A stretch of 64,000 bases of DNA from Rhododendron vialii. Its lineage: Eukaryota; Streptophyta; Magnoliopsida; Ericales; Ericaceae. Both the position numbers and the translations under genes were made by a program. Location of the stretch: contig NC_080560.1 of NCBI RefSeq assembly GCF_030253575.1, positions 37,031,001 through 37,095,000 of the forward strand, read 5' to 3'. Shown here one piece after another: positions 23,894 to 52,211 of this stretch. The notes beneath the pieces are model-generated. The model made no database searches. It saw only the letters and a list, made by a program, of their open reading frames with translations, and was not told the DNA's origin. Each line of letters opens with the position of its first letter. Positions within the stretch are counted from its first letter, which is position 1.

Positions 23894-25477
23894 ATGGCTC
23901 AGATTGGGGTTTTTTCAGTAATCAGTCCCATAGAATCTGCTAAATACCGAAAAGGTAATCTTCTCTCTCCTCCCCACCGTTCATATTTTGCCCTTCGTTC
24001 TCATTCCAACACTATAAACACTAGAAGTTCTACTCCTTCTGCGACCCTCATCAGCCCAGCACGAAAGCAAGATGATGTTCCAACCATTTTAGAAATCAAT
24101 AAGGCGTTAGCCAATACTACGAAGTCGGGTAAGTACAGCACGGCTCTTTCTCATTTCAACGAGTTGCAGTTACACGACATTGAGCTAAATTTGTACACCT
24201 TCAACATTGCAATTAACTGCTATTGTTGCGTTAATCGAGTTGGATTTGGGTTCTCTCTTTTAGGCAGCATCTTGAAACGCGGTTATACGCCAGATGTAGT
24301 TACCTTCAACACTCTGTTGAATGGGCTTATCCCACAAGATAATGCTGATGAGGCTCTTTCTCTTTTCAACAAGTTGTTGTTACAAGACATTGAGCTAAAT
24401 TTGTATACCTTCAACATTGCTATTAACTGCTACTGTCGCGTGAATCGAGTTGGCTTTGGGTTCTCTCTTTTAGGCAGTGTCTTCAAACGCGGTTATACGC
24501 CTGATGTAGTTACCTTCAACACTCTGTTGCATGCACTTATCCCACAAGATAAAGCTGAAGAGGCTCTTTCTCTTTTCAACAAGTTGTTGTTACAAGACAT
24601 TGAGCTAGATTTGTATACCTTCAGCATTGCTATTAACTGCTACTCTTGCGTGAATCGAGTTGGCTTTGGGTTCTCTCTTTTAGGCAGCATCTTCAAACGC
24701 GGGTATACACCTAATGTAATTATCTTCAACACCCTGTTAGATGGACTTATCGCACAGGATAAAGCTGATGAGGCTCTTTCTCTTTTCAATAAGTTGTTGT
24801 TACAAGACATTGAGCTAGATTTGTATACCTTCAGCATTGCTATTAACTGCTACTCTCGTGTGAATCGAGTTGGCTTTGTGTTCTCTCTTTTAGGCAGCAT
24901 CTTCAAATGCGGGTATACACCTAATGTAGTTATCTTCAACACCCTGTTAGATGGACTTATTGTACAGGATAAAGCTGATGAGGCTCTTTCTCTTTTCAAC
25001 AAGTTGTTGTTACAAGACATTGAGATCGATTTGTATACCTTCAACATTGCTATTAACTGCTACTGTCACGTGAATCAAGTTGGCTTTGGGTTCTCTCTTT
25101 TAGGCAGCATCTTCAAACGCGGTTATACGCCTGATGTAGTTACCTTCAACACTCTGTTGAATGCACTTATCCCACAAGATAAAGCTGATGAGGCTCTTTC
25201 TCTTTTCAACAAGTTGTTGTTACAAGACATTGAGCTAGATTTGTATACCTTCAGCATTGCTATTAACTGCTACTCTCGCGTGAATCGAGTTGGCTTTGGG
25301 TTATCCCTTTTGGGCAGCATCTTCAAAAGCGGTTATACGCCTAATGTAGTTACCTTCAGCACTCTGTTAAATGGATTTATTGCACAAGATAAAGCTGCTG
25401 AGGCTCTTTCTCATTTTGAGAAGTTGCAGTTACAAGACATTGAGCTAAATTTTGTACACCTTCAACATTGCAATTAA
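23894..25477 (+). CDS. PPR2: RFL-type PPR array, 3'-truncated
   Basis: 527 residues. A 64-residue basic/Ser-rich leader (MAQIGVFSVISPIES...) is followed by 13 consecutive 35-residue PPR motifs (65-519) that alternate between a VVTFNTLLNGLI-type and a LYTFNIAINCYC-type motif. The modules are almost identical to one another. The frame ends after an extra T in aaattttgtacacc (25447-25453; aaatttgtacacc in the intact modules), giving FVHLQHCN and a stop. A few bases later (about 25485) the sequence jumps to spacer DNA (atgtatgttgcattccactg, as at 44006), so the conserved RFL C-terminal half is deleted. The ATG at 23894 matches the MTQIGVFSV start of PPR3-5; an earlier in-frame ATG lies in the GA tract. 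Whether the truncated protein is made is unknown. Confidence 0.65.
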   Translation: MAQIGVFSVISPIESAKYRKGNLLSPPHRSYFALRSHSNTINTRSSTPSATLISPARKQDDVPTILEINKALANTTKSGKYSTALSHFNELQLHDIELNLYTFNIAINCYCCVNRVGFGFSLLGSILKRGYTPDVVTFNTLLNGLIPQDNADEALSLFNKLLLQDIELNLYTFNIAINCYCRVNRVGFGFSLLGSVFKRGYTPDVVTFNTLLHALIPQDKAEEALSLFNKLLLQDIELDLYTFSIAINCYSCVNRVGFGFSLLGSIFKRGYTPNVIIFNTLLDGLIAQDKADEALSLFNKLLLQDIELDLYTFSIAINCYSRVNRVGFVFSLLGSIFKCGYTPNVVIFNTLLDGLIVQDKADEALSLFNKLLLQDIEIDLYTFNIAINCYCHVNQVGFGFSLLGSIFKRGYTPDVVTFNTLLNALIPQDKADEALSLFNKLLLQDIELDLYTFSIAINCYSRVNRVGFGLSLLGSIFKSGYTPNVVTFSTLLNGFIAQDKAAEALSHFEKLQLQDIELNFVHLQHCN

Positions 25478-25484
25478 CTGCTAT

Positions 25485-28400
25485 TAATGTATGTTGCATT
25501 CCACTGATCTTTGTTGTTTGGGTACATTTTAAGAACCCGTCTCTTATAGGACAGAGTTCCAGACTTGGGTTACCCTTACTAAAATACAGTTTCTCACTAT
25601 AAGGTACCTTACGGTTTATAAAACGGGGAAATTTAACTCAATTAAAGAATAATGTAAGTCTTAACGCCTTATGTACATTGATTGCAGATGGTTGGTTCAG
25701 TTGAAAACTTGAAGGCATCTACTATTTGGTCCCCTTTCAAGTTTGTCTTTTGAAGTATGTCAGTGCTTTTGTGAAATGTGTTAGACTTCTACTGGCTTGT
25801 CTATGATGTATAGGGTGTACATGGAGATGCTCACCTTTTGTTTCTTTGTTTGTGCGAGCACAAGACTTTACATTTTGTTGCTAGTTAGTATGTTCTTTTG
25901 GCCGTCGGGCTGATATAGATATGGCTTAAGTAGGATAGTTCAAGATTTAACTCTTTAACGAAGCTATAGTTCGAGCCTTTTGATTTCTTTTGTGCTGATG
26001 GGTTCGATTCCGTAAGAACCCATCCTCCTCCTCAAGTCCCCTAGGATAGAGTAGATTAGGATTAACTATTAGCAAAAAAAAACTCTAATTTGTATGAATC
26101 GGAGGTGGTGGCCACTTTAGTTTTTTCTTATAGAACAGTACCTATTGAAATCTGTAGCTATTTTGTTTTATTGTTTTTCTTTACAATGGAATCTCTGGTA
26201 TGCAATGGAATCTTTACATTCTCGGTATTAATTTTCATTTGAGCACCTTGTAATATGGCACACGTTACCATGTCCTGAACTGGGAACAAAATACATCACT
26301 GGGATTTTCTTACCGTATCGCAAACGTGTTGGACACGGACACAACTCGCGACAACTCTAAATGAATGGGTACACAGACATGTCAGCAGACACGGCTAAGA
26401 ATATACATGCATTTGTATTGACATTAGGCTTGTGAACATTCTATCTAGATACAACAATTACTTATGGCTTCTTTCTGATTCTTACTTTTTGCTTTTTAAG
26501 TGGTATAATTGATCACTGTCATATTTTGATTTCCAGGAATAAGCTTTTACTATTATAAATTGATCAATGTAATGTTTCCACCTGTGCTGAAGTTGAATCT
26601 TTGATATGTCCCTGGTGTCTTGCCTGCTTAAAATTAGTAAAATTACGTGGAGACGCTGTCTAGCATGTCCCATACCGCCATATGTGTCCCTGGCGTGTCT
26701 AATACAGATACAATATGCAGTTAGGCGTGTCAGCGCTTTATCGGGTTGTAGATACCAGATACTGCAAGAGAATCGTAAGAATAGTAATGATAGGTCATGC
26801 CAATATAGTTTGGAAATGGAAGAAACCCAACTGATTTATTTTAATGTACAGTAAATTTGTGTTCCATTTTTAGGCTTACCTTATGTTCATGGTAGAGGTT
26901 TTGTGGTGCAATAATGTTGCTATTGGCTCAGAGGTGATATCCATTAGCCACCATTATTACCCTAAGCTGTTGTACTATTTGCTAGTCTCATATGTGTTTA
27001 TTTTTCAATGGTGAAATGTCTAGGCCTGAAACAATTTTATTCTGTTAATCAAGGTCTTTATTTCCCCATGAAAATATGGTGTCAACGACTCAACTGTCAA
27101 AAGCCTTGTGGTGGAATATTCAGCATATTGATTGATGTTCAAATGACTGCTTCTACTTCTTGATTATGGTGGTGTGACATCCTACTGCTTTGATTATGTA
27201 TTCGAGAACATTGTTACTGACCTTCTCATTCCTCATTGTTATTCATGTGAACATTCTATCTAGATACTATCAAACTTATAAGATCAGTATGGTTCTTACT
27301 TTTTACTTGTTAAATTGTAGATTTTAATTCAGGATTATAAATTGATACCCGGGAATATGCTTTTACTATTATAAGTGATCACTGTCATGTTTCCACCCGT
27401 GTTCAAGTTAAGACATGGGTGTCCACGAACTTTCCCTTGTATGTCGCCTGCTTAAAGTTTTTTAATGTAAGTGGACACGCTATCTAGCATGTCCCAACTG
27501 TGTCCCCGGTGTGTATCATGCAGATACGGTAAGCAGTTAGACGTGTCGGTGTTTCATAGGTTAGTAGATACAAGATATTCTAAGAGAATCAGAAGCATAC
27601 TAATTATAGGTCTTGCCATGATACTTTGAAATTGTAAGAAACCCACCTGAGTCTTTTGAATGTACCGTCAATTTGTGTTCCATCTTTAGGCTTACCTTGT
27701 GTTCATGGTAGAAGTGCAATAATTTGGCTATTGGCTCAGAGGTGATATCCATTAGCCACCATTACATTTCTGAGCTAGTAAGACTCGTATGTGTTTATTT
27801 TTCAATTGCAAGAATTCTAGGCCTGAAACAATTTTATTCTGTCAATGAAGGTTTGAGATTCCCCTATGGAACGATGCTGTCGGACGACTTGTTGTGGATT
27901 GTTCAACATACTGATCTATTGTTCAAATGGCTGCTTCTACTTTTTTTTCGTGATACGACATCCTACTGCTTTGATTATGTATAAGCGACCATTGTTACGG
28001 ACCGTCTCAGCCATGTATCTCAGTTTTATTCGGGGGGAAGCAAGTACAAAAATGAAGGGTGAATGGTGGCGTACAAATTTGTCAGATTCGAACCGACGAA
28101 TTGAGTTTTTGCGAACCCCTGCCTTGGCCACTTGGTTGCGGTTCCCTATCAATTCCTTGTCTTTCCCCTTCTCTGACTTCGCTTCATAGGGTGCAACCCG
28201 GAATAAACGATGCTGGAATGCTTTGGGAGGAAGCATAACATAGGGGACATAGATTATGATAAATACTTTGTAAAACTTGAGAATCCAAGAGTTCTCCCTA
28301 CCCAAACCCTTTCCGGGGTGACAATATAAAGATGCATCCAGAGATTTGTTGATGCTCCACGACCCAGAAAGTATGGTATCTGTCAACAGATTCAGCTGCC

Positions 28401-28790
28401 GTTGGTATAAAAAATGCAGGTTCTAACCATCAAATTGGAAAACTATGCCAGGTTATGATCTTATTCTGTAGTGCTTGATGGAGATTCTTTTCTTCTTCTT
28501 TTTAAAGGGAGAATTGCTGGAATCTCTGAAATTTTTGGTCAGGATCTTCTGTAGTAGATGAACTGTTTACTAGGGTGGCATAAATTGGTTGTTTTCATTT
28601 TGTTGCATAGTTCTTGGCTGTGTCTTGTTTCTTTTGCTTTGGTGGCTCCTGACTTTATGCCGTGGGGAGTTTGCTGAGATAGCTTTGTTGGTTGTGTGTC
28701 CTGTTTGGACTTTGCCGTATTTGTTTGGAGCTTTTAATGATTGTGTACATTTACCGGAAAAATAGATTACTCCGTGCACGTGCGGATCTT
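25485..28790. repeat. Repeated spacer module, unit 2
   Basis: Non-coding. Starts with the block atgtatgttgcattccactg that in units 4 and 5 follows the RG-type repeat. Contains a SINE-like 3' fragment (about 25998-26080: gggttcgattccgtaagaac ... cccctaggatagagtagatt), the empty TRIM site (near 26190), and two spacer subunits with the core ttggctcagaggtgatatcc near 26923 and 27733. It ends with the tgccgtggggagtttgctga segment also found at 17490. Confidence 0.6.
28079..28148 (-). pseudogene. tRNA-Cys(GCA)-like relic, copy 2
   Basis: The minus strand gives ccaagtggccaaggcagggg, then ttcgcaaaaactc with a GCA centre, then gtcggttcgaatctgac, a 5-bp T-stem (GTCGG/CTGAC with one G-U) around TTCGAAT. 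D- and T-arms are well kept. The acceptor stem is not closed. Copies also at 16929, 37155, 46661 and 59041. Confidence 0.4.
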
Positions 28791-31926: not shown

Positions 31927-31928
<2 letters not shown>

Positions 31929-31974: not shown

Positions 31975-33504
31975 ATGACTCAGATTGGGGTTTTTTCTGT
32001 AACCAGTCCCATGGAATCCGCTAATTACCGAAAAGGTAATCTTCTCTCTCCTCCCCACCTTTCATATTTTGCCCTTCATTCTCATTCCAACACTAGAAAC
32101 CCAAGAAGTTCTACTCCTTCTGCGACCATCATCAGCCAAGCAAAACCCCAGCCCAGTTTTGGAAGAGAAAGCTTGTCGAAAGAAAACCCCAGGTTGGAGA
32201 ATCTGCGCCCTGCGCAAGATGATGTTCCAACCATTTTAAAATTCAATAAGGCGTTGGCAATTATTGCGAAGTCAGGTAAGTACGGCAAAGCTCTTTCTCA
32301 TTTCAACGAGTTGCAGTTAAAGGAGATTGAGCTAGATTTGTATACCTTCGCCATTGCCATTAAGTGCTATTGTCACCTGAATCGAGTTGGCTTTGGGTTA
32401 TCGCTTTTAGGCGGTATCTTCAAACGGGGTTATACGCCTGATGTAGTTACCTTCACCACTCTGTTAAATGGACTTATCGCACAAGATAAAGCTGATGAGG
32501 CTCTTTCTCTTTTCAACAAGATACAGTTACGAGACATTGAGCTAGATTTGTACACCTTCAACATTGCAATTAACTGCTACTGTTGCATGAATCAAGTTGG
32601 CTTTGGGTTCTCTCTTTTAGGCAGCATCTTCAAATGCGGTTATATGCCTGATGTAGTTACCTTCACCACTCTGTTAAATGGACTTATCGCACAAGATAAA
32701 GCTGATGATGCTCTTTCTCTTTTCAATAAGTTGCTATTGCAAGACACCGAGCAAAATTTGTACACCTTCAACATTGCAATTAACTGCTACTGTCACGTGA
32801 ATCGAGTTGGCTTTGGGTTCTCTCTTTTAGGCAGCATCTTCAAATGCGGTTATATGCCTGATGTTTTTACCTTCACCACTCTGTTAAATGGACTTATTGC
32901 ACAAGATAAAGCTGCTGAGGCTCTTTCTCTTTTTGACAAGTTGCAGTTACAAAACATTGAGCTAGATTTGTACACCTTAAGCATTGCAATTAACTGCTAC
33001 TGTTGCGTGAATCGAGTTGCCTTTGGGTTATCGCTTTTAGGCGGTATCTTCAAACGTGGTTATACGCCTGATGTAGTTACCTTCACCACTCTGTTAAATG
33101 GACTTCTTGCACAAGATAAAGCTGATGAGGCTCTTTCTCTTTTCAACAAGTTCTTGTTACAAGACATTGAGCCAACTTTGTATACCTTCAGCGTTGCTAT
33201 TAACTGCTACTGTCATGTGAATCGAGTTGGCTTTGGGTTCTCTCTTTTAGGCGGTATCTTCAAACACGGTTATACGCCTGATGTAGTTACCTTCAACACT
33301 TTGTTAGATGGACTTATCGGACAAGATAAAGCTGATGAGGCCGTGGAGTTATTTGAGAAAGTAGTCAAAAAGGGTGAAATCAAACCCGATGAGACGATAT
33401 ATGGATCGTTAATAAATAGGCTTTGCAAAATGGGAAACACGGGAGCGGCTATTAGTTTTCTGAGGATAGCAGAAGGAGGTTTAAAACATGACACCATGAC
33501 ATAG
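31975..33504 (+). CDS. PPR3: RFL-type PPR array ending at a shared nonsense codon
   Basis: 509 residues. An 86-residue basic, Ser/Pro-rich leader (probable organelle transit peptide) precedes 12 PPR motifs (87-506). Motifs 1-10 alternate between VVTFTTLLNGLI-type and LYTFNIAINCYC-type; motif 11 (VVTFNTLLDGLI...VKKGEIKPD) and motif 12 (ETIYGSLINRLCKMGNTGAA) are the beginning of the conserved RFL C-terminal series. The frame ends at TAG (33502-33504) where PPR1 has TAT (Tyr). The same TAG is present in PPR4 and PPR5. The remaining C-terminal motifs are visible downstream as a pseudogene. This array has no frameshift before the TAG, unlike PPR4 and PPR5. Confidence 0.65.
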   Translation: MTQIGVFSVTSPMESANYRKGNLLSPPHLSYFALHSHSNTRNPRSSTPSATIISQAKPQPSFGRESLSKENPRLENLRPAQDDVPTILKFNKALAIIAKSGKYGKALSHFNELQLKEIELDLYTFAIAIKCYCHLNRVGFGLSLLGGIFKRGYTPDVVTFTTLLNGLIAQDKADEALSLFNKIQLRDIELDLYTFNIAINCYCCMNQVGFGFSLLGSIFKCGYMPDVVTFTTLLNGLIAQDKADDALSLFNKLLLQDTEQNLYTFNIAINCYCHVNRVGFGFSLLGSIFKCGYMPDVFTFTTLLNGLIAQDKAAEALSLFDKLQLQNIELDLYTLSIAINCYCCVNRVAFGLSLLGGIFKRGYTPDVVTFTTLLNGLLAQDKADEALSLFNKFLLQDIEPTLYTFSVAINCYCHVNRVGFGFSLLGGIFKHGYTPDVVTFNTLLDGLIGQDKADEAVELFEKVVKKGEIKPDETIYGSLINRLCKMGNTGAAISFLRIAEGGLKHDTMT

Positions 33505-34190
33505 GCCATGATCATTGACCATCTTTGCAAGGATGGGTTGGCGAATGACGCTCTCAACTTCTTAGTAGAAATGAATAGCAAAGATATTTCTGCAAATAAT
33601 GTCACTTATACATCCTTGATTTATGGTCTCTGCTCTTTGCAAGCGAGGGATGACAATGGAAGTGGAGGAGTTACTTGAAGTCATGGAAGAAAGAGTTGTG
33701 GGTCCTGATGCAGTCACATACACTTGGCTCATGGAGGGATATTGTTACAAGGCCAGATGGACAAAGCAATAAGATTGTTAAAGGCCATGGGGGATAGGGG
33801 CATTCATCTAGACACATGTTGCTATAACATTTGGATCAATGGATATTGCAAGAACATGAAATTAGTCGAGGCTGTGCATCTTCTTCGAGAAATGCCTCTA
33901 CTGGGTCTAAAACGTGACATCATTAGTTTTAGAACTATATTGCTAGGTCTGGTTCAGATAGATATATATGCTCCTGCCCAAGAAATTCTTAATGAGATGC
34001 AACCTGCCGACCCACATCTCGATACTAAAACTTGTGGTCTCTTGTTCGACGGCCTTTGCCAAAGTGGGCATATTGATGAAGCAATATTCTTATTTCACAT
34101 GATGGAAAAAAGGGTTTAGGTCTCGATATTGTTAAATACAATGTCCTTGTTGATGCATACTGCAAGAAGAAAACACTTGGTATGATTCAA
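33505..34190 (+). pseudogene. Decayed C-terminal half of PPR3
   Basis: Aligned with PPR1 it continues as AMIIDHLCKDGLANDALNFL after the TAG. It then has a ~98-bp deletion (joined at gatttatgg/tctctgctc, about 33623), a 1-bp deletion in attgttacaaggcc (attgtttgcaaggcc in PPR1), and a 1-bp deletion in the Lys run of MMEKR that makes a stop at 34117-34119. Motifs GYCKNMKLVEAVHLLREM and LCQSGHIDEAIFLF are still readable. Confidence 0.8.
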
Positions 34191-35380
34191 GGTCTTTTGA
34201 GGAACCCGTGGTTGAGGAAGTTGTTGCCTGCGGAATGATGTCTCTTACACAGTTACACGATATCATTCTGGGATTTCATCGAGGTTTGAAATCATTCGAG
34301 GCCAAGGGGCATCAACAGGGATATCCATATTCCAAATAGTATGGCATTCAATTCTTATATTCTTACCATTATCACATGTTGGAGATTCTTATGGACTCTT
34401 GTCTTTATCCCTTGGGATAATTATTTGATCTCCTTTCAATCTACCAGAATGAGTTCCAACATCCTCTTCTGGTGCTTCAATAATCCCACTGTTCCTTTCA
34501 ATCTGTGGTTGTAAAATATCAGCTTTCTTTCTCTCCAAAGAGTCTCATTTTCACATTGGAGGCATCTTCTGGACTTGATTCTTGATAGTCAGTTCTCTCT
34601 ACTTCCAACATTTCTCTCTCTATCTCTCTCCACTTATTACCCCTACTATTTTTCAAAAAACTTTTCAAATACCAAACCAAACACAGCACATGTCTTTTGA
34701 AGTATAACAGTGCTTTTGTGAAATGTGTTAAGAGTTCTACTGGCTTGTCTATGATGTATAGAGTGTACATGGAGAGGCTCACCTTTTGTTTCTTTGTTGG
34801 TGCGAGCACAAGACTTTACTTTTTGTTGCTAGTTAGTATGTTCTTTTGGCCATTGGGCTGATATAGATATGGCTCAAGTAGGATAGTTCAAGATTTAACT
34901 CTATAACCAAGCTATAGTTCGAGCCTTTTGATTTCTTTTGTACTAGTGGGGAATGTTCCCACTTGAACTTTATCTATTTCAGTAATGTAGTATGAAATGG
35001 GTGATGTGCCCTCTTGAACCCTAATTTGTGTGCAAGTGGAGTGGGTGCAGTTGGTGCCTCCCTTGGGCAAGGTTGGATTCCGTAAGAACCCATCGTCCTC
35101 CTCAAGTCCCCTAGGATATAGTAGATTAGGATTAACGATTAGCAAAAAAACTATAATTTGTATGAATTGGAGGTGGTGGCCACTTTAGTTTTTTCTTCTA
35201 GAACAGTACCTATTAAAATCTGTAGCTGTTTTGTTTTATTGTTTTTCTTTACAATGGAATCACTGGTATGCAATGGAATCTTTACATTCTTCGTATTATT
35301 TTTCATTTGAGCACCTCGTAACATAGCACAAGTTACCATGTCCTGAACTGGGAGCAAAACACATCTCTGGGATTTTCTTA
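34191..35380. other. 3' flank and spacer of unit 3
   Basis: 34191-34600 is the shared PPR 3' flank. 34610-34690 holds a MITE fragment (ctctctatctctctccactt ... accaaaccaaacacagc). 34795-34930 is the agactttactttttgttgct block. 35020-35150 is a SINE-like 3' fragment (ggttggattccgtaagaacc ... cccctaggatatagtagatt ... aaaaaaa). No gene. Confidence 0.5.
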
Positions 35381-39645: not shown

Positions 39646-41664
39646 ATGACTCAGATTGGGGTTTTTTCTGTAACCAGTCCCATGGAATCCGCTAATTACC
39701 GAAAAGGTAATCTTCTCTCTCCTCCCCACCTTTCATATTTTGCCCTTCATTCTCATTCCAACACTATAAACCCTAGAAGATCTACTCCTTCTGCGACCAT
39801 CATCAGCCAAGCAAAACCCCAACCCAGTTTTGGAAGAGAAAGGTTGTTGAAAAGAAAACCCAGGTCGGGGAATGTGCGCCTTGCGCAAGATGATGTTCCA
39901 ACCATTTTCAAAATCAATAAGGCGTTGGCGATTATTGCGAAGTCGGGTAAGTACGGCAAAGCTCTTTCTCATTTCATCGAGTTGCAATTAAAAGACATTG
40001 AACTTGATTTATACACATTCAACATCGCAATTAACTGCTACTGTTGCGTGAATCAAGTTGGCTTTGGGTTATCGCTTTTAGGAGGTATCTTCAAAAGCGG
40101 TTATTCGCCTAATAGAGTTACCTTCACCACTCTGTTAAATGGACTTATCGCACAAGATAAAGCTGATGAGGCTCTTTCTCTTTTTTACAAGTTGCAGTTA
40201 CAAGACATTGAGCTAGATTTGTACACCTTAAGCATTGCAATTAACTGCTATTGTCGCGTGAATATGGTTGGCTTTGGGTTATCGCTTTTAGGCGGTATCT
40301 TCAAACGCGGTTATACGCCTGATGTAGTTACCATCACAACTCTGTTAAATGGACTTATTGCACTAGATAAAATTGTTGAGGCTCTTTCTCTTTTCAACAA
40401 GTTGCTGTTACAAGACATTGAACTAAATTTGTATACCTTCGGCACTGCAATTAAATGCTATTGTCGCATGGATATGGTTGGCTTTGGGTTATCGCTTTTA
40501 GGCAGTATCTTCAAACGCAATTATACGCCTGATGTAGTTACCTTCACCACTCTGTTAAATGGACTTATTGCAGAAGATAAAATTGTTGAGGCTCTTTCTC
40601 TTTTCAACAAGTTGCTGTTACAAGACATTGAGTTAAATTTGTATACCTTCGGCATTGCAATTAACTGCTATTGTCGCGTGAATATGGTTGGCTTTGGGTT
40701 ATCGCTTTTAGGCGGTATCTTCAAACACGGTTATACGCCTGATGTAGTTACCTTCAACACTCTGCTAAATGGACTTATCGCACAAGATAAAGCTGATGAG
40801 GCTCTTTCTTTTTTCAACAAGATACAGTTACGAGACATTGATCTAGATTTGCACACCTTTAGCATTGCAATTAACTGCTACTCTTGCGTGAATCGAGTTG
40901 GCTTTGGGTTCTCTCTTTTAGGCAGCATTTTCAAACACGGATATACACCTAATGTAGTTATCTTCAACAACCTGTTAAACGGACTTCTTACACAAGATAA
41001 AGCTGATGATGCTCTTTCTCTTTTCAATAAGTTGCAATTGCAAGACATTGAGCAAAATTTGTACACCTTCAACATTGCAATTAAATGCTACTGTCACGTG
41101 AATCGAGTTGGCTTTGGGTTCTCTCTTTTAGGCAGCATCTTCAAATGCGGTTATATGCCTGATGTATTTACCTTCACCGCTCTGTTAAATGGACTTATTG
41201 CACAAGATAAAGCTGCTGAGGCTCTTTCTCTTTTTGACAAGTTGCAGTTACAAGACATTGAGCTAGATTTGTACACCTTAAGCATTGCAATTAACTGCTA
41301 CTGTTGCGTGAATCGAGTTGCCTTTGGGTTATCGCTTTTAGGCGGTATCTTCAAACGTGGTTATACGCCTGATGTAGTTACCTTCACCACTCTGTTAAAT
41401 GGACTTTTTGCACAAGATAAAGCTGATGAGGCTCTTTCTCTTTTCAACAAGTTGTTGTTACAAGACATTGTGCCAACTTTGTATACCTTCAGCATTGCTA
41501 TTAATTGCTACTGTCATGTGAATCGGGTTGGCTTTGGGTTCTCTCTTTTAGGCAGTATCTTCAAACACGGTTATACGCCTGATGTAGTTACCTTCAACAC
41601 TCTGTTAGATGGACTTATTGGACAAGATAAGCTGATGAGGCCGTGGAGTTATTTGAGAAAGTAG
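39646..41664 (+). CDS. PPR4: longest homogenised RFL-type PPR array, frameshifted at its 3' end
   Basis: 672 residues. An 86-residue basic leader (MTQIGVFSVTSPMESANYRK...) precedes 16 full PPR motifs (87-646) and one partial. Odd motifs are VVTFTTLLNGLIAQDKADEA-like and even motifs LYTFNIAINCYCRVNRVGFG-like, so the array is eight near-identical 210-bp modules. The normal frame is lost by a 1-bp deletion in gacaagataagctgatgag (41621-41640; gataaagctgatgag in PPR3 and PPR5), so the last residues KLMRPWSYLRK are out of frame. Without that deletion the next break would be the TAG at 41802-41804 shared with PPR3 and PPR5. P-class PPRs bind organellar RNA; with only modules of this kind the array resembles a designed consensus solenoid. 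The open length of over 2 kb is notable for a copy with a dead 3' half. Confidence 0.65.
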   Translation: MTQIGVFSVTSPMESANYRKGNLLSPPHLSYFALHSHSNTINPRRSTPSATIISQAKPQPSFGRERLLKRKPRSGNVRLAQDDVPTIFKINKALAIIAKSGKYGKALSHFIELQLKDIELDLYTFNIAINCYCCVNQVGFGLSLLGGIFKSGYSPNRVTFTTLLNGLIAQDKADEALSLFYKLQLQDIELDLYTLSIAINCYCRVNMVGFGLSLLGGIFKRGYTPDVVTITTLLNGLIALDKIVEALSLFNKLLLQDIELNLYTFGTAIKCYCRMDMVGFGLSLLGSIFKRNYTPDVVTFTTLLNGLIAEDKIVEALSLFNKLLLQDIELNLYTFGIAINCYCRVNMVGFGLSLLGGIFKHGYTPDVVTFNTLLNGLIAQDKADEALSFFNKIQLRDIDLDLHTFSIAINCYSCVNRVGFGFSLLGSIFKHGYTPNVVIFNNLLNGLLTQDKADDALSLFNKLQLQDIEQNLYTFNIAIKCYCHVNRVGFGFSLLGSIFKCGYMPDVFTFTALLNGLIAQDKAAEALSLFDKLQLQDIELDLYTLSIAINCYCCVNRVAFGLSLLGGIFKRGYTPDVVTFTTLLNGLFAQDKADEALSLFNKLLLQDIVPTLYTFSIAINCYCHVNRVGFGFSLLGSIFKHGYTPDVVTFNTLLDGLIGQDKLMRPWSYLRK

Positions 41665-42417
41665 TCAAAAAGGGTGAAATCAAACCCGATAAGACGATGT
41701 ATGGATCGTTAATAAATAGGCTTTGCAAAATGAAAAACATGGGAGTGGCTATTAGTTTTCTGAGGATAGCGGAAGGAGGTTTAAAACATGGCACCATGAC
41801 ATAGGCCATGATCATTGACCGTCTTTGCAAGGATGGGTTGGCGAATGACGCTCTCAACTTCTTAGTAGAAATGAATAACAAAGATATTCGTGCAAATAAT
41901 GTCACTTGAAGTCATGGAAGAAAGAGGTGTGGGTCCTCATGCAGTCACATACACTAGGCTCATGGAGGGATATTGTTACAAGGCCGGATGGACGAAGCAA
42001 TGAGATTGTTAAAGGCCATGGTGGATAGGGGCATTCATCCAGACACATGTTGCTATAACATTTGGATCATTGGATATTGCAAGAACATGAAATTTGGCGA
42101 GGCCCTGCATCTCCTTCAAGAAATGCGTCTACTGGGTCTAAAATGTGACATCATCACTTTTAGAACTATATGGCTAGGTCTGGTTCAGATAGATAGATAT
42201 GCTCTTGCCCAAGAAATTCTTAATGAGATGCAACCTGCCGACCTACATTGCGATACTAAAACTTGTGGTCTCTTGTTCGACGGCCTTTGCCAAAGTGGGC
42301 TTATTGATGAAGCAATATTCTTATTTCACATGATGGAAAAAAGGGTTTAGGTCTCGATATTGTTAAGTACAATGTCCTTGTTGATGCATACTGCAAAAAG
42401 AAAACACTTGATATGAT
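41630..42417 (+). pseudogene. Decayed C-terminal half of PPR4
   Basis: Restoring only the alignment, not the gene, the segment continues as KADEAVELFEKVVKKGEIKP, then TAG at 41802-41804. A ~167-bp deletion joins gtcactt to gaagtcatgg (about 41907; shared with PPR5), then the attgttacaaggcc 1-bp deletion and the EKRV stop (42348-42350) follow as in PPR3. The 125-codon open frame 41973-42350 still shows YCKNMKFGEALHLLQEM and LCQSGLIDEAIFLF. Confidence 0.8.
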
Positions 42418-42660
42418 TCAAGGTCTTTTGAGGAACCTGCGGTTTAGGAAGTTGTTGCCTGCAGAATGATGTCTCTTACACAATATCATTCTGGGATTTC
42501 ATCGAGGTTTGAAGTCATTCGCGGCCAAGGGGCATCAACAGGGATATCCATATTCCAAATAGTATGGCATTCAATTCTTATATTCTTACCATTATCACAT
42601 GTTGGAGATTCTTATGGACTCTTGTCTTTATCCCTTGGGATAATTATTTGATCTCCTTTC
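42418..42660 (+). other. Conserved PPR 3' flank (unit 4)
   Basis: The shared 3' block (caaggtcttttgaggaacct ... ttatcccttgggataattat) stops at gatctcctttca (42660) and jumps to cacccatttggaaaccaaag. Unit 5 has ~1.38 kb between these points, of which 1.0 kb is a hAT insertion. Confidence 0.55.
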
Positions 42661-44015
42661 ACCCATTTGGAAACCAAAGATTTTACTGGGGCATCAAAGG
42701 TGCTAACTGTCATAAGTAGCAACTTACGGGTTTAATAATGCTAGCTATATTGATTCTGTCACGTTTAATCATGTTGTTTCGTCATGTTTTGCTGCAGTGA
42801 CGTTAGTCATGTTTTCCTTTAGTTTGTTTCAATCATTTCTAAAGTCTGAAGTTACCCAGTTAAATTTTTTATTCATCACCATGGTGTCCAGCGACCTCCA
42901 TGATAGTCCTTTGTGCTGACACTGCAAAAATTCCTAATGAATTTACGACTGTTCTTTTTGCTTTTAATTTTGATGAACTATGGTATTTCCATGTCATTCT
43001 ATGCTGTACTGTTTATGCATGCTACTCTGTATTACCGAGATGGAAAGGGAAGGATCAGGTAGAGCAGTTAGTTTCTAGCTTTAGGAACTTAAGTCTGCAC
43101 AATTATATCGCTCAGTGAGTTTGAAGCATTCGAACTTAAAGTCTGCACAATTATATTGCTTTTAGAGGAAATCTGGTTTCATTTGTATGTCCTTAATCCA
43201 GGCTAGAGTATTATGCAGTATCTATGGAGAATAGACACCTTGCCAGAGGTCAGCTACCAGTGTTGGAAGCTTCTCACACACCAGCACTCCCTGGACACTC
43301 TCCGGACAACTGTTCCACGTTCAAAGTGTAAGTGTCCAAAAGTTTAAAATTCTGTTCTCTTGGACAATCTGGGGCATGCTTTGAATACCTTAGAACACTC
43401 TTTAGAGGCTTGCAGGACAAGTCTTTACTGTAGTGAAAGCATCTGATATTCTTCATTTTGTGTCTTAGATTATGGTTGATACATTATAATGACAAGTGCA
43501 TGATGAAACACCTTATGTTGGACAATTATTAGGAATAATGCAATGACAGTTGGCAAATAAGAATTTTAGTTTAGTTGCCTTATTCTTGTTATGGTCTTTT
43601 TTTTTTCACTGCCACGTATTCGAAAGATTAACATACAGATTTGTATGTCGTATACCTAATGTGTCAAGTCCACCATTTTTCAAAATCTGGTAGTTGGTGT
43701 GGTGGTATCCTGTCTGTGTCTGTATGCCATACTGCAACATGGTGCACAGTAAATACATAATCAAGTTAGATATTGAGGATTGATGTTAAAGCTCTTAACC
43801 CTCTGATTTTGACTTCTATATCAAGTTCTAATTAGCACTCTTATACTGATAATATAATGGTGCAGGGCAGGGGGAGTTCAAATGGAAGGGGGAGGTCAAG
43901 TGGAAGGGGAATGTCAAGTGGCATAGGACGGTCAAGTGGAAGAGGAAGGTCAAATGGAAGGGGAGTTCAAGTGGAAGGGAAATATGTCAAGTGGCATAGG
44001 CTTGATGTATGTTGC
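42661..44015 (+). pseudogene. Exon-like relics of an unrecognised gene, with RG/QVEG minisatellite (unit 4)
   Basis: About 43203-43329 lies between an acceptor-like tccag and a donor-like gtaagtg and is open (LEYYAVSMENRHLARGQLPV, then LEASHTPALPGHSPDNCST). 43865-44000, after an acceptor-like atggtgcag, is a minisatellite of 15-18-bp units (ggtcaagtggaaggggaatg-type) that reads GRGSSNGRGRSSGRG in one frame and GGVQMEGGGQVEGE in another. I do not recognise the protein. The same blocks are at 54600-55945, and the acceptor region once more at 63400-63520. Confidence 0.35.
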
Positions 44016-46965
44016 ATTCCACTGATCTTTGTTGTTTGTGTACATTTTAAGAACCTGTCTCATATAGCACAGAGTTCCAGACTTGGGTTACCCTTACTAA
44101 AATACAGTTTCGCACGATATGGTACCTTACGGTTTATAAAACGGGGAAATTTAACTCAATTAAAGACTAATGTAAATCTTAACAACTTATGTACATTGAT
44201 CGTAGATGATTGGTTCAGTTGAAAACTTGAAGCCATCTACTATTTGGCAAGTTTGCATGTCTTTTGAAGTATAACAGTGCTTTCTTGAAATGTGTTAGAC
44301 TTCTACTGGCTTGTCTATGATTTATAGGGTGTACATGGAGAGGCTCACCTTTTGTTCCTTTGTTGGTGCGCGCACAAGACTTTACTTTTTGTTGCTAGTT
44401 AGTATGTTCTTTTGGCCATCGGGCTGATATAGATATGGCTCAAGTAGGTTAACTCTGTAACCAAGCTATAGTTCGAGCCTTTTGATTTCTTTTGTGCTGG
44501 TGGGGAATGTTCCCACTTGGAACTTTTTCTATTTCAGTAACGTAGTAAGAAATGGGTGATGTGCCCTCTTGTACCCTAATTTGTGTTCAAGTGGAGTGGG
44601 TGCAGTTGGTGCCTCCCTTGGGCAGGGTTTGATTCCGTAAGAACCCATTGTCCTCCTCAAGTCCCCTAGGAAGAGTAGATTAGGATTACTGATTAGCAAA
44701 AAAACTATAATTTGTGTGAATTGGAGGTGGTGGCCACTTGAGTTTTTTCTTCTAGGACAGTACCTACTAAAATCTGTAGGTATTTTGTTTTATTGTTTTT
44801 CTTTACAATGGAATCTCTGGTATACAATGGAATCTTTACATTCTTCGTATTAGTTTTCATTTGAGCACCTCGTTACATAGCACAAGTTACCATGTCCTGA
44901 ACTTGGAGCAAAACACATATCTGGGATTTTCTTAACTGTATCACAAACGTGTCGGACACGGACACAACTCGCGATAACTCTAAATAAATGAATGGGGACA
45001 TAGACATGCCGGGGGACATGGCTAAGAATATATATGCATTTGTATTGACATTAGGCTTGTGAACATTCTATCTAGATACAACAAGTACTTATGGCTTCTT
45101 TGTGATTCTTACTTTTTGCTTTTCAAATGGTATAATTGATCACTATCATATTTTGATTTCTGGGAATAAGCTTTTACTATTATAAATTGATCAATGTAAT
45201 GTTTCCACATGTGCTGAAGTTGAATCCTTGATATGTCCCTGGTGTCTTGCCTTCTTAAAATTAGTAAAATTACGTGGAGACGCCGTCTAGCGTGTCCCAT
45301 ACTGCCATATGTGTCCCCGGTGTGTCTAATACTGATAAAGTATGCAGTTAGGCATGTCAGCGCTTTATCGGGTTGTAGATACCAGATATTGCAAGAGAAT
45401 CATAAGAATAGTAATGATAGGTCATGCCAATATAGTTTAGAAATGGAAGAAACCCAACTGATTTATTTGAATGTACAGTAAATTTGTGTTCCATTTTTAG
45501 GCTTACCTTATGTTCATGGTAGAGGTTTTGTGGTGCAATAATGTTGCTATTGGCTCAGAGGTGATATCCATTAGCCACCATTATTACCCTAAGCTGTTGG
45601 TCTATTTGCTAGTCTCATATGTGTTTATTTTTCAATGGTGAAATGTCTGGGCCTGAAACAATTTTATTCTGACAATCAAGGTCTTTATTTCCCCATGAAA
45701 ATATGGTGTCAACAACTCAACTGTCAAATGCGTTGTGGTGGAATATTCAGCATATTGATTGATGTTCAAATGACTGCTTCTACTTCTTGATTATGGTGGT
45801 TTGACATCCTACTATTCGAGAACATTGTTACCGACCGTCTCATTCCACATTGTTATTCTTGTGAACATTCTATCCTGATACCATCAAACTTCTAAGATCA
45901 GTACGGTTCTTACTTTTTACTTGTTAAATTGTAGATTTTAATTCAGGATTATAAATTGATACCTGGGAATATGCTTTTACTATTATAAGTGATCACTGTC
46001 ATGTTTCCACCCGTGTTCAAGTTAAGACAGGGGTGTCCACGAACTTTCCCTTGTGTGTCGCCTACTTTAAGTTTGTTAATGTAAGTTGACCCGCCATCTA
46101 GCGTGTCCCATCCATGTCCCCAGTGTGTATCACGCAGATATGGTAAGTAGTTAGGCGTGTCGGTGTTTCATAGGTTAGTAGATACAAGATATTCTAAGAG
46201 AATCAGAAGCATACTTATTATAGGTCTTGCCATGATACTTTGAAATTGTAAGAAACCCACCTGATTTTTTTGAATGTACTGTCAATTTGTGTTTCATCTT
46301 TAGGCTTACCTTGTGTTCATGGTAGACGTTTTATGGTGCAATAATTTGGCTATTGGCTCAGAGGTGATATCCATTAGCCACCATTATGTTTCTGAGCTAG
46401 TAAGACTCGTATGTGTTTATTTTTCAATTGCAAGAATTCTAGGCCTGAAACAATGCTGTCGAACGACTTCTTGTGGAATGTTCAACATATTGATCTGATG
46501 TTCAAATGGCTGCTTCTACTTTTTTGGTTATAGTTATACGACATCGTACTGCTTCGATTACGTCTAAGCAACCATTGTTACTGACCATCTCATCCACGTA
46601 TCTCAGTTTTATTTGGGGGGAAGCAAGTACAAAAATGAAGGGTGAATGGCGGCGTACGAATTGGTCAGATTCGAACTGACGAGTTGAGTTTTTGCGGACC
46701 CCTGCCTTTGCCACTTTGTTGCGGTTCCCTATCAATTCCATGTCTTTCCCCTTCTCTGACTTCGCTTCGTAGGGTGCAACCCGGAATAAACGATGCTGGA
46801 ATGCTTTGGGAGGAAGCATAACATAGGGGACATAGATTATGATAAATATACTTTCTAAAACTTGAGAATCCAAGAGTTCTCCCTACGCAAACCCTTTCCG
46901 GGCCGACAGTATAAAGATGCATCTAGGGATTTGGTGATGGTCCACGACCCAGAGAAAGTATGGTA
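44016..46965. repeat. Repeated spacer module, unit 4
   Basis: Contains the agactttactttttgttgct block (44390), a SINE-like 3' fragment (44590-44705, gtttgattccgtaagaaccc ... cccctaggaagagtagatta), the empty TRIM site (near 44815) and two subunits with the core ttggctcagaggtgatatcc near 45550 and 46354. Non-coding. Confidence 0.65.
46661..46730 (-). pseudogene. tRNA-Cys(GCA)-like relic, copy 4
   Basis: Minus strand: acaaagtggcaaaggcaggg, tccgcaaaaactc, gtcagttcgaatctgac. T-stem here is GTCAG/CTGAC, which pairs fully by Watson-Crick. The acceptor stem is not closed. Confidence 0.38.
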
Positions 46966-47740: not shown

Positions 47741-48929
47741 AGGTTTCAAGTGAAAAGCCAAAAACCTTGGTAAATTTCAGTATCCCCAAGATCGAAATTT
47801 CGATTAGGCAGAAGATTACCCGGGGTATTTCACACCTACATAGTCTCGTTCAAATTGAAACTCGACTACCGTAGGAATTGCATTTAAAACATGGAAATCA
47901 AAGGGTAGTGCAAGGGCTGATCTTGCCTAGATATCAGCATCTAAAACCGTAGGAATTGCATCTAAAAGCAGTCTTGTTGGCTTCACGACAGATATGGAGG
48001 AGTCGCGCCGCTTGAAATTTCTGGTGATGGTCAGTTCTAGATTCTTGCATTAATTGAATTTCATCTTCAAAATAAACTTTAGGCCCACTAGAAAATGTGG
48101 ACTCTGATGTGCCGAAAAAGGAGATGACTTCTTTAACGTTTAGCATCTAATTTTGTATTTTTCTTTCATGGTCGGACTTGTTCCCATTGTAGCACTCATC
48201 AAGTAGAACCAGCATGCAGAAAATCAAGTTAGTTAGACTCCAAAAATATCTAATCGGAGCACATTTATTTTGAAAAAATAAAAGAGAGCAAGGCAAGCAG
48301 GGTAAGAGCATCGGGCTCTTGTTGTGCACTTTAGTGTCAGATTTTATAGAGATAATAACAATTTGCAATTTTTTTTGCTCCATTTGATCACTTTAGGGAC
48401 TACTTTAGATAAAAATCCCCCCCTCGAATTTTTTGAAATACAAACGAAAATAATCCAATAAATTTGTCTTTATGGCTTATTTTTGTCTTTGTTCTAAAAC
48501 TTTTGAGTTTCAATCACAAATAATTTTTTGATTTCTTTGGTCGAGACAAACAAATAATCCACAAATTTGACACGAAACCGACAAAAGAAAAAAAAAAAAG
48601 CCACTCGACTTATTTAGCAAAACTAGGCCTGAAAACAATGAAATATGTTTTTTTATTTTTATTATTATTATTATTATTTTATATTTCTGTGGCCTCTTGA
48701 TTTTGTTACTCCATTAACAAGTATTAATTGTTTGTACCAAAAAAGAAAAAAGGGTCTTGATTTTGTTACTCCATTAACAAGGCAAAAGTTACACGAAAGT
48801 GGAAGAGAAATTATTTGGTAAATGATACTAACACTCCAAAAATTAATGCAGGCACTTCAAAATCAGTGTAATTTCAAAGCCATTTTCTTTTGTTTTTTGG
48901 ATGCTTCCATCAATTTTTGGAATGCTAAT
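47741..48929. other. Spacer upstream of the LINE and PPR5, no supported gene
   Basis: Copy of 38237-39420. The minus-strand frame is split by a stop (ORFs 47934-48146 and 48147-48383). The 48697-48785 tandem repeat cttgattttgttactccatt is the one shared with unit 4. 48661-48680 is an (ATT)n tract. Confidence 0.45.
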
Positions 48930-50630
48930 ATATATATATTTTTTGATAGTCAAAAACTTGCCCACAGGGCTACACAAAATTAGAGAATTCAGAAGCTAGA
49001 ACAGAAAAAACAAGAGGAGGTGGACTAGCCACCCAGTTACAAGGAAGTAAATCTCTGAGCGCCTTGGAAGCCACAACATGTGCTACTCCATTGGCAACCC
49101 TGCTAACCCAAGTGAGAGCTATCTCACACTCCTTCCTCAATTCTCTGATATCCATCACAATGGAGGCCACATCCCATGGGGGAGCTAATTCGGACACACT
49201 CAATTTGATGGTTTGCTGATTATTTGATTCTATACACGCCCTTCTGCAGCCCATAGATTTGACCATGCCACAAGCAAACCGAATCGCTAGCAACTCTCCC
49301 TGAAGAGGACTGGATACTTTAACATGATTTGCACTTCCATTCAGAATCTTTCCCTTCCAATCTCTCTGCACCACTGCACAAACTGCATCCTTCCCATTCT
49401 TTTTAATAGCCACATCACAATTCAATTTAAAGCATCCTTGGTTCGGAGCCCTCCACCGGGAAGGACTGTCCACAGTGGGAGGGTTATCCATGCGAACCAA
49501 ACCTGGGACCCTAATCTCCATGAATTCTCGAAGGGCTTCTCCAGCTCTTCTCATTGTCTTCTCTGGATCAACTGGGTTAGATGAGAAAACAAATTCATTC
49601 CTTGATTTACATATATACCACGCTATTGTAACCACTCTGCTCAAAAACTGATTGAGCTCCTTGCCTTTCAAAGTATCCACCACTTGAGATGTCCATACCT
49701 TGGCTGAATTGGGAGAGCCATGACCTACATTCAGCTTTATATGACTCCCAAACCACACAACACGAGTCGAGCAACAATCAAACAACACATGTTCAATAGT
49801 TTCATCGAATGATCCACAGATGGGGCACACTTTGGAATTACTACACTTCCTTCGCATCAGATTTTCTTTCCTTGCCAGGCTATTACTACACACTCTCCAC
49901 CAAAAATGCCTTACTTTATGAGGGACTTCCAGCTTCCAAATTACATCCCAGAGATTTTTGTTGGGCGTGAACGAGGATGAGGGTTGGCTATCTCTTTTGC
50001 AAACTCTTTCCTGAAAAGCAAAGCGATACCTTGACTTCACCGAATAGTCACCATTCTTAGAAAAATGCCAGACCAAAGAATCCTCTCTCTCCGGCCATGG
50101 AATTGGAATTGAGGTGATCACTTGCCATTCTTGCACTCACCACTTGCCTCAGCTTATCTTCCTCCCAGACCCCTCTATTCTTGTTGATTACATCTGACAC
50201 CCACTCAATTTCGCAATTGCTAGGTTTAAGAGACACCATCTTGAAACCAGGAAGTGACGGAATCCATTTGTCTTCCCAGAACTTGATCTTCTCCCCATTT
50301 TGAACTTGCCACCTCACTCCTTTTTCTAGAATCCCCCTTCCATATAACAAGCTTAATCATACCCATGAAGCTCTACTCCCTCTCGCTGCTTCCATAAATG
50401 AACTATTTGGAAAGTACAACCCTTTTAGAATCATTGCCCTATAGGACTGAGGGTTCTTCGTCAGCCTCCAACCCTGCTTCGCAAGTAAAGCTTCGTTCAT
50501 GGCTCTAAAATTCCTAAATCCCAACCCTCCTTCAGACTTGACACAAGTCATTGTATCCCAATCTTTCCAATGAATTCATCTCTTCTCCGGGTCTCCTTTC
50601 CACCAGAAATTAGACACGACTCACACGAGA
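48930..50630 (-). mobile_element. 5'-truncated LINE (L1-type) inserted upstream of PPR5
   Basis: Minus-strand frames give, in order, the end of the reverse transcriptase/thumb region (VKSEGGLGFRNFRAMNEALL, AKQGWRLTKNPQS; 50551-50357), GIRWQV-like NGEKIKFWEDKWIP (50350-50057), zf-RVT (WKLEVPHKVRHFWWRVCSNS, CPICGSFDETIEHVLFDC) and RNase H (KLNCDVAIK, GELLAIRFACG, ACIESNNQQ). At least two frame breaks separate them. The catalytic Asp of the third RNase H motif (usually ESDS) is Asn (ESNN), so the enzyme would be inactive. The catalytic FADD-type reverse-transcriptase core is missing. Unit 4 keeps the uninterrupted site (39390-39430), which bounds the insert to about 1.7 kb. Confidence 0.85.
48970..50136 (-). 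pseudogene. LINE ORF2 C-terminus: zf-RVT and RNase H
   Basis: 388 codons open. Residues ~60-140 are the zf-RVT linker (Trp/Cys-rich, CPICG...HVLFDC), residues ~225-365 the RNase H fold (NCDVAIKKNGKDAVCAVV, GELLAIRFA, ESNNQQTIKL, WVSRVANGVAHVVAS). Asp to Asn in the third motif. In life the domain removes the RNA strand after target-primed reverse transcription; here it is a relic in a truncated copy. Confidence 0.8.
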
Positions 50631-50780
50631 ATTTAACTTGTTCTTTTGCGCCACAAAACGTACAGACATTTTTAAGGGCAAATAGTCATTTAAAAAATTA
50701 GAATGCAAGTACTGTGTGACTTCGAAAAATTTGGGATACCAGGTGAGCTTGGAATATCCTCATCCTTCGAATTCACTTAC

Positions 50781-50782
<2 letters not shown>

Positions 50783-50814
<32 letters not shown>
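50783..50814 (+). repeat. (GA)n microsatellite before PPR5
   Basis: 16 AG/GA units followed by cggacggagaagag and the ATG at 50829. In one frame it extends the open reading frame upstream as (RE)n, which is not taken as coding. Confidence 0.9.
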
Positions 50815-50816
<2 letters not shown>

Positions 50817-50828
50817 GACGGAGAAGAG

Positions 50829-52211
50829 ATGACTCAGATTGGGGTTTTTTCTGTAACCAGTCCCATGGAATCCGCTAATTACCGAAAAGGTAATCTTCTC
50901 TCTCCTCCCCACCTTTCATATTTTGCCCTTCATTCTCATTCCAACACTATAAACCCTAGAAGATCTACTCCTTCTGCGACCATCATCAGCCAAGCAAAAC
51001 CCCAACCCAGTTTTGGAAGAGAAAGGTTGTTGAAAAGAAAACCCAGGTCGGGGAATCTGCGCCTTGCGCAAGATGATGTTCCAACCATTTTCAAAATCAA
51101 TAAGGCGTTGGCGATTATTGCGAAGTCGGGTAAGTACGGCAAAGCTCTTTCTCATTTCATCGAGTTGCAGTTAACGGAGATTGAGCTAGATTTGTATACC
51201 TTCGCCATTGCTATTAAGTGCTATTGTCACCTGAATCGAGTTGGCTTCGGGTTATTGCTTTTAGGCGGTATCTTCAAACGCGGTTATACGCCTGATGTAG
51301 TTACCTTCACCACTCTGTTAAATGGACTTATCACACAAGATAAAGCTGATGAGGCTCTTTCTCTTTTTTACAAGTTGCAGTTACAAGACATTGAGCTAGA
51401 TTTGTACACCTTAAGCATTGCAATTAACTGCAATTGTCGTGTGAATATGGTTGGCTTTGGGTTATCGCTTTTAGGCGGTATCTTCAAATGCGGTTATACG
51501 CCTGATGTAGTTACCTTCACCACTTTGTTAAATGGACTTATTGCACAAGATAAAATTGTTGAGGCTCTTTCTCTTTTCAACAAGTTGCTGTTACAAGACA
51601 TTGAGCTCAATTTGTATACCTTCAGCATTGCAATTAACTGCTATTGTCGCGTGAATATGGTTGGCTTTGGGTTATCGCTTTTAGGCGGTATCTTCAAACG
51701 CAGTTATACGCCTAATGTAGTTACCTTCACCACTCTGCTAAATGGACTTATCGCACAAGATAAAGCCGATGAGGCTCTTTCTCTTTTCAACAAGATACAG
51801 TTGCATGACATTGATCTAGATTTGCACACCTTTAGCATTGCAATTAACTGCTACTCTTGCGTGAATCAAGTTGGCTTTGGGTTCTCTCTTTTAGGCAGCA
51901 TTTTCAAACACGGATATACACCTAATATAGTTATCTTCAACACCATGTTAAAAGGACTTGTTACACAAGATAAAGCTGATGAGGCTCTTTCTCTTTTCAA
52001 CAAGTTGCAGTTACAAGACATTGAGCTAGATTTGTACACCTTCAACAATGCAATTTACTGCTACTGTCACGTGAATCGGGTTGGCTTTGGGTTCTCTCTT
52101 TTAGGCGGTATCTTCAAACACGGTTATACGCTTGATGTAGTTACCGTCAACACTCTGTTAGATGGACTTATTGGACAAGATAAAGCTGATGAGGCCTTGG
52201 AGTTATTTTGA
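50829..52211 (+). CDS. PPR5: RFL-type PPR array, frameshifted at its 3' end
   Basis: 460 residues. The leader is nearly identical to PPR4 (86 residues), followed by 10 full PPR motifs (87-436) and one partial. It is the sister of PPR4 by shared deletions and spacer but has six motifs (630 bp) fewer. The frame ends by a 1-bp insertion in gagttattttgag (52200-52211; gagttatttgag in PPR3), which creates an immediate TGA. The ATG at 50829 matches the other copies; an in-frame ATG at 50703 would add a (RE)n low-complexity tract from the GA repeat and is rejected. A LINE sits about 0.2 kb upstream of the start, so the promoter may be altered. Confidence 0.62.
   Translation: MTQIGVFSVTSPMESANYRKGNLLSPPHLSYFALHSHSNTINPRRSTPSATIISQAKPQPSFGRERLLKRKPRSGNLRLAQDDVPTIFKINKALAIIAKSGKYGKALSHFIELQLTEIELDLYTFAIAIKCYCHLNRVGFGLLLLGGIFKRGYTPDVVTFTTLLNGLITQDKADEALSLFYKLQLQDIELDLYTLSIAINCNCRVNMVGFGLSLLGGIFKCGYTPDVVTFTTLLNGLIAQDKIVEALSLFNKLLLQDIELNLYTFSIAINCYCRVNMVGFGLSLLGGIFKRSYTPNVVTFTTLLNGLIAQDKADEALSLFNKIQLHDIDLDLHTFSIAINCYSCVNQVGFGFSLLGSIFKHGYTPNIVIFNTMLKGLVTQDKADEALSLFNKLQLQDIELDLYTFNNAIYCYCHVNRVGFGFSLLGGIFKHGYTLDVVTVNTLLDGLIGQDKADEALELF

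Follow-up and report, generated by a model that had tools for sequence, protein, structure and literature searches.

Gain and loss of motifs has been described for several PPR genes of the restorer (RFL) type. Rice RFL genes show motif duplication, deletion, insertion and transposition, and unequal crossing over has been proposed to alter their length (PMC5075784, legend to Fig. 6d). The radish gene Rfo carries a five-motif block duplicated internally in tandem at its C-terminal end and is stable at 17 motifs, with intra- and intergenic recombination reported (PMC2848758). A duplicated set of PPR motifs is also present in rice RF6, where it is needed for restoration; neither rf6 nor any other known RF protein has it (review PMC13326993). 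In barley, 9 of 26 long RFL sequences were possible pseudogenes, either without a targeting signal or cut inside a motif, and short remnants were attributed to unequal crossing over (PMC7380019). For the RFL genes of Brassicaceae, segmental duplication and retrotransposition have been described (PMC5080715). Here, a group of five PPR genes (PPR1 to PPR5) is analysed in a 64,000-nucleotide stretch of Rhododendron vialii DNA, C4:37031001-37095000 of a genome of 532.6 Mb in 13 contigs, hereafter the window; this single genome was examined. Four of the genes contain arrays of a 210-bp unit. We consider it probable that they belong to an RFL-type P-class PPR cluster in which one unit was duplicated and then multiplied by unequal exchange, and that the long arrays, now without C-terminal tails, are most likely non-restoring relics.

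All five genes are long open frames on the + strand with matches to the Pfam PPR families (PPR_2, PPR_1 and PPR in every gene; PPR_2 E-values from 6.6e-119 to 1.8e-60). PPR1 (9435..11462) is a 675-residue RFL-type gene with three copies of a motif of LYTFxIAINCYC type (motif A) and with its C-terminal PPR tract in the same frame. The open frames of the other four are located at 23894..25477 (PPR2), 31975..33504 (PPR3), 39646..41664 (PPR4) and 50829..52211 (PPR5), the PPR2 and PPR5 coordinates being given from the family ATG (the mechanical start of the PPR5 frame is 50703). An earlier reading of the letters of the window, the original prediction, had proposed arrays of two-motif, 70-residue modules at 23894-52211, which is exactly the span from the PPR2 ATG to the PPR5 stop. 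This architecture was confirmed by Tandem Repeats Finder (TRF), run independently of that reading, and by translation. Modules in PPR2-5 are spaced by exactly 70 residues, each comprising two 35-residue motifs, and motif A is followed by a VVTFxTLLNGL-type motif B in strict alternation. TRF reported 210-bp arrays with 0% indels in all four genes: 24142-25483 in PPR2 (6.4 copies, 91% matches, score 2122), 32290-33341 in PPR3 (5.0 copies, 88%, score 1600), 39961-41641 in PPR4 (8.0 copies, 87%, score 2410) and 51144-52195 in PPR5 (5.0 copies, 85%, score 1516), each starting 48-49 bases ahead of the first motif A. By translation the genes have 6, 5, 8 and 5 modules, respectively, and in PPR4 motif 1 is followed by 15 complete module motifs and one cut motif. 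The tandem 35-residue motifs are those of the P class; the arrays consist of such motifs only, with no PLS triplets, and no DYW family was among the Pfam matches to E 0.001, although the tails of PPR2-5 are lost in any case. Inside a motif of PPR1, at window positions 9990-10097, there is also a small tandem repeat of period 39 (2.9 copies) that spells GLIAQDKTAEAN-like repeats.

The internal motif B is a hybrid, with its front from motif 3 and its back from motif 1. The comparison is cleanest in PPR3, the gene without indels to disturb it, where the tails (last 48 bases) of internal B motifs matched the motif-1 tail at 0.79 and the tail of the terminal B, the old motif 3, at 0.31, whereas their fronts matched the terminal B front at 0.90 and the motif-1 front at 0.36. 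In PPR4 and PPR5, where indels in the last module disturb the terminal comparison, the tails scored 0.79 and 0.81 against motif 1 and 0.30 and 0.30 against the terminal B, and the fronts 0.76 and 0.86 against the terminal B and 0.33 and 0.34 against motif 1. The founding duplication therefore began midway through motif 1 of a normal gene and ended midway through its motif 3. The terminal B tail of PPR2 is of the internal type (0.85) because that array is cut at the start of its seventh unit; from 25484 on, the PPR2 sequence corresponds to DNA located about 2.3 kb past the array of PPR4. The history may be depicted as follows. A 210-bp stretch of an ancestral gene, reaching from the second half of motif 1 into the first half of motif 3, would have been duplicated in tandem, leaving the hybrid junction that is seen today. 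The resulting in-frame 70-residue unit would then have grown and shrunk by unequal exchange between units to give 2, 3, 5, 6 and 8 copies, and the gene with its flanks would also have been copied in tandem to produce PPR3, PPR4 and PPR5.

A whole-genome census was made with 35 bases of the motif A core, allowing up to 3 mismatches; all its counts are lower bounds. At least 56 matches were found, compared to none for the reversed control, and of the 24 array modules in PPR2-5 all but one were recovered (7 in PPR4, which in truth has 8). Places with more than one match are confined to the 33.2-39.5 Mb interval of C4. Six of them have two copies, PPR1 and a place at 39.49 Mb have three, and among the places found only PPR2-5 have more than three (6, 5, 8 and 5). 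Single copies were detected at ten more C4 places and at five on C1, C8, C10 and C12. With 22 places in this part of C4 against five single matches elsewhere, the genes form a cluster of very similar paralogues. A second census, in which a motif-A profile was applied to the window together with 23 further loci (L009-L031), returned the same ladder, so that 1, 2, 3, 5, 6 and 8 copies occur in the genome; in it L018 was scored as one copy, a second, broken copy falling below the cut-off. Self-matches at a shift of 210 bp were present in L012, L013 and L018-L022. In a module tree, for which L027 was chosen as the root and which was read without inspection of its support values, most of the one-copy loci were outer branches.

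PPR3, PPR4 and PPR5 are tandem segments with flanks 90.6-94.7% identical, spaced by 7.7 and 11.2 kb, and they differ from one another by one to three whole units. Alignment by a path model limited to whole-unit shifts, in which the step size is imposed by the model, showed that PPR5 relative to PPR4 skips one unit near 51494 and two more at about 52000-52059. The segments between are 93-98% identical except for the first module (89%) and the last 18-base piece, and short pieces fit other units better. PPR3 lacks about three early units relative to PPR4 and likewise has short pieces from other units. Independently of the path model, BLAST matches with few or no gaps fell at whole-unit offsets, and the TRF arrays had 0% indels. 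Within PPR2, a block from module 2 into module 3 recurs three units on at 97%. The original prediction that array length changes in 70-residue steps is thus borne out by the unit-sized gaps among PPR3-5 and by the ladder of copy numbers, and both of these are observed directly; we infer unequal exchange as their mechanism.

Larger internal repeats were also seen elsewhere in the family. A longer internal duplication, with a shift of 736 bp at 84%, is present at L010:1954-3403 within a PPR frame of 723 residues. At about 35.83 Mb on C4, L024:7353-9839 and L025:1477-3858 contain a separate higher-order repeat, a five-motif block of 525 bp in about three repeats with 93-95% identity, located in open frames of 828 and 793 residues; L025 has a 420-bp version in addition. 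The block copies differ at positions 5 and 35 among others, and unlike the arrays of the window these frames keep a long tract past motif A.

The original prediction had further proposed that the modules are near-identical and homogenised within each gene. The 210-bp period stands, but near-identity does not, as the mean within-gene module DNA identity was 87.3% (range 78-96%). When the leading 165 bases of the modules were compared, the 63 pairs from the same gene averaged 87.26% identity and the 213 pairs from different genes 87.22%. This equality is the outcome that the prediction itself had named as speaking against it, in one half of the test that it set. For 15 of the 18 modules of PPR3-5 the closest module is in another gene, at up to 99%; only two have it in their own gene (PPR3 module 2 and PPR4 module 3), and PPR4 module 1 is a tie. 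The module tree accordingly pairs mostly counterparts across PPR3-5 rather than modules of one gene. PPR2 alone has clear intragenic kinship, with five of six modules closest to another PPR2 module (modules 2 and 5 at 96%, modules 3 and 4 at 96%). Gene conversion keeping the modules of each gene alike, as first proposed, could account for this kinship and for the block recurring at 97%, but for PPR3-5 it is already contradicted by the equal identities, the nearest modules and the tree, and we regard it as quite improbable for the locus as a whole. A TAL-like concerted evolution of the arrays was likewise rejected, since modules were no more alike within genes than between them (87.3% against 87.2%), PPR2 being a partial exception.

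Diversifying change is present at the RNA-contact positions, as expected of RFL genes. When each of the 24 modules was paired with every other, the four codons at positions 5 and 35 of motifs A and B had pN 0.252, pS 0.035 and dN/dS 8.5, compared to a dN/dS of 0.44 for the other 66 codons. A codon model gave an omega of 13.3 for the four codons, taken alone on the tree of the others, against 0.58 for the rest and 0.68 for all codons. The proposed contrast in dN/dS between these positions and the rest was therefore found, and 796 of 100,000 random four-codon sets matched the rate of codons 5 and 35. The claim that modules differ mostly at these positions was not sustained, as they hold 15.3% of the nonsynonymous differences, where their length would predict 5.7%. 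Variation is higher at four other codons (A16, A13, A30 and B13, named by motif and position) than at any of them, and A35, the weakest of the four, is outside the 16 most variable codons. A13, A16 and A30 are arginine CGN codons in which TGN and CAN are the main replacements, as CpG decay would produce, and were set aside as signals of selection. B13 has pN 0.36, no synonymous change, the residues A, P, G, T and V, and no CpG-type pattern. Among 19 modules taken from PPR1 and from nine further loci, the latter picked by the analyst as close relatives, dN/dS was 1.51 at 5/35 and 0.46 over 55 codons, a contrast reached by 1431 of 50,000 random three-codon sets; though weaker here, 5/35 variation is thus shared by the family as a whole and is not confined to the long arrays. 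During the divergence of the modules the scaffold was under purifying selection and positions 5 and 35 under diversifying pressure, a pattern which fits RNA binders chasing changing transcripts, presumably mitochondrial ones.

All four array genes are truncated, which was missed in the original prediction. Past the last motif A, the open frame continues for 43 residues in PPR2, 73 in PPR3, 26 in PPR4 and 24 in PPR5. PPR2 is cut past module 6, PPR3 ends at a TAG which is found at the same place in PPR4 and PPR5, and the frames of PPR4 and PPR5 end by private frameshifts in the last module, that of PPR4 in the last motif and that of PPR5 in the last motif together with a stop. Beyond the frames, decayed C-terminal PPR tracts on the + strand extend over 33505..34438 in PPR3, where 1-nt deletions and a larger deletion follow the TAG, 41665..42661 in PPR4 and 52212..53216 in PPR5. 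The three tails have in common the TAG and two 1-nt deletions at the same places, and those of PPR4 and PPR5 also a larger deletion. Tail omega in PPR3-5 was 1.20 (0.75-2.1) from three overlapping pairs, and the decayed tract drifts neutrally. Among the table rows with one to three copies, PPR1 included, 18 of 25 keep at least 300 residues past motif A (312-707), compared to none of the four long arrays (Fisher p 0.014), with a 300-residue cut that was chosen after the table had been seen and with four genes that are not four independent events, because PPR3, PPR4 and PPR5 inherited one lesion. PPR2-5 all fall short of an RFL protein with 15-20 PPR motifs and a full C-terminal tract, and by motif count alone only PPR4 qualifies.

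The arrays themselves look less decayed. In eight counterpart module pairs of PPR3-5 the pooled omega was 0.50 (0.28-0.88), with a codon bootstrap that excludes 1. Taken singly, four pairs were near 0.9 or without synonymous change and four at 0.15-0.29, one module being used twice. Array and tail counts differ (Fisher p 0.008 or 0.013, depending on rounding), and there is no stop or frameshift ahead of the last module in any of the four array genes. That the arrays are better kept than the tails argues against plain pseudogenes. A count of disabling events also favours better-kept arrays (P 0.08 or 0.02, depending on how events were counted by eye). The leaders have an omega of 0.61 (0.34-1.2), 15-16 serines or threonines and 1-2 acidic residues in 60. 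Zero stops among 56 recent changes is not a significant shortage under neutrality (P 0.08-0.19), nor is enrichment of recent changes at 5/35 clear (4 of about 34, P 0.13-0.14). As a sign of kept function, the low array omega is suggestive only, because exchange with intact paralogues would also lower it. The better-kept array bodies weigh against non-restoring relics as the outcome, along with the two limits on the tract contrast given above. The same side holds two further points: the one-copy loci L010, L011 and L018 nest among multi-copy modules in the tree, so that copies were probably lost as well as gained, and the name RFL is provisional, applied from architecture, clustering and resemblance.

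The truncated genes might still work as array-only RNA binders, in which the leader, motif 1 and 9-15 complete module motifs replace the tail and the array goes on being re-cut, with changes of length and specificity. The difference in omega between array and tail, the open frames from ATG to last module in all four genes, the serine- and threonine-rich, acid-poor leaders and the 15 complete module motifs of PPR4, near the 15-20 given for a full RFL protein in PMC5075784, are all consistent with it. The private frameshifts inside the last modules of PPR4 and PPR5, the indistinct 5/35 signal among recent changes, the non-significant lack of stops and the possibility that exchange lowered omega without selection on these copies speak against it, and on balance we find it rather unlikely. 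A yet bolder version, that PPR3-5, with PPR2 as a possible fourth member, represent RFL products of a new kind, tail-less array-only binders of one cassette re-cut in 70-residue steps with the scaffold under purifying selection, is in our judgement unlikely. A narrower form of the favoured explanation holds that module divergence dates from a time when the genes still had their full length, that only drift acts now and that the low array omega is left by conversion of old differences. To this we assign a little less than an even chance. The neutral tail, the CpG-decay-like changes at A13, A16 and A30, the mosaic matches to several donors and the half of the counterpart pairs with omega near 0.9 or no synonymous change point to it, but it has to contend with the pooled value over eight pairs and its bootstrap interval. 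An assembly artefact in the tandem copy number would be conceivable, as tandem arrays are error-prone in general. Here about 1 base in 8 differs between units and even the longest array measures only 1.7 kb, therefore long reads would span the arrays; there are also four distinct arrays in four genes with diverged flanks, and such an error is very improbable. We retain a duplicated and re-cut RFL-type cluster on one chromosome as the probable explanation. Within it, PPR2-5 are most likely truncated relics that do not restore fertility, or at best RNA binders consisting of the array alone, rather than the active specificity-generating core of the cluster.

The remainder of the window holds further repeated sequence. 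Downstream of each PPR gene lies a segment of about 2.4 kb with 86-95% identity (15138-17610, 26000-28510, 35071-37460, 44625-46965 and 56980-59471), within which a stretch of about 0.8 kb is repeated at about 75%; its open frames gave no convincing gene, no Pfam scan being made. Between PPR4 and PPR5, at 48970-50136 on the - strand, a reverse-transcriptase-related frame (zf-RVT, RVT_3) is probably a transposon remnant and may help to explain the wider spacing of these two genes. Scans of the window for Rfam families, at gathering thresholds, and for tRNA genes gave 0 matches each. Outside the window, at about 37.15 Mb on C4 (L012:1-2040), TIR-like and NB-ARC-like frames, seen by eye with no family search, adjoin a two-copy PPR remnant and are a putative gene of disease-resistance type within the PPR cluster.

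TAL effectors also combine regular repeats with variable specificity residues. PPR2-5 differ from them in belonging to the RNA-binding PPR family and in having modules only 87% alike. Designed consensus PPRs (dPPR, cPPR) have in common with PPR2-5 the regular repeats and the variable specificity residues, and again differ by the 87% likeness of the natural modules. The best solved-structure matches of PPR4 are indeed designed PPRs (222 bits), but L017, an ordinary one-unit gene of this genome, matches designed PPRs at 590 bits, so that the special likeness put forward in the original prediction does not hold. If the array-only reading were true, the genes of the window would form a natural set of PPR arrays that resemble designed ones and are graded in length. 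Either way, one to eight copies of a cassette at one site, in paralogues of one genome and with the founding junction still readable, provide a worked example of how unequal exchange may lengthen PPR arrays and of the fate of the rest of the gene. Should any truncated array be expressed, the series could be used to test the effect of motif number alone on the binding of natural PPRs; should none be, this would suggest that runaway cassette growth goes with gene loss.

A search of the literature found no paper joining concerted evolution with PPR restorers, and among the papers listed for Rhododendron together with PPR restorers none had a title on this subject. The parts of the PPR restorer literature at hand contained no array in which a single two-motif unit is repeated many times. 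Rice RFL genes resemble those of the window in being clustered P-class PPR genes with motif gain and loss and 5/35 variation. They differ in that one or several motifs moved per event, and no array reaching eight two-motif units is described in the available text (PMC5075784). Rfo likewise has an internal tandem block duplication, but in the window the block has two motifs, lies near the N-terminus and is present in 1-8 copies (PMC2848758). The duplicated motif set of RF6 lies within the gene, as here; that duplication is needed for restoration, whereas any function of the window arrays is putative (PMC13326993). Some of the barley RFL sequences are cut as PPR2-5 are, and differ in that amplified two-motif arrays do not appear in the accessible part of that text (PMC7380019). 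Motif duplication in RFL genes is thus already published, and the arrays of the window are an extreme form of it.

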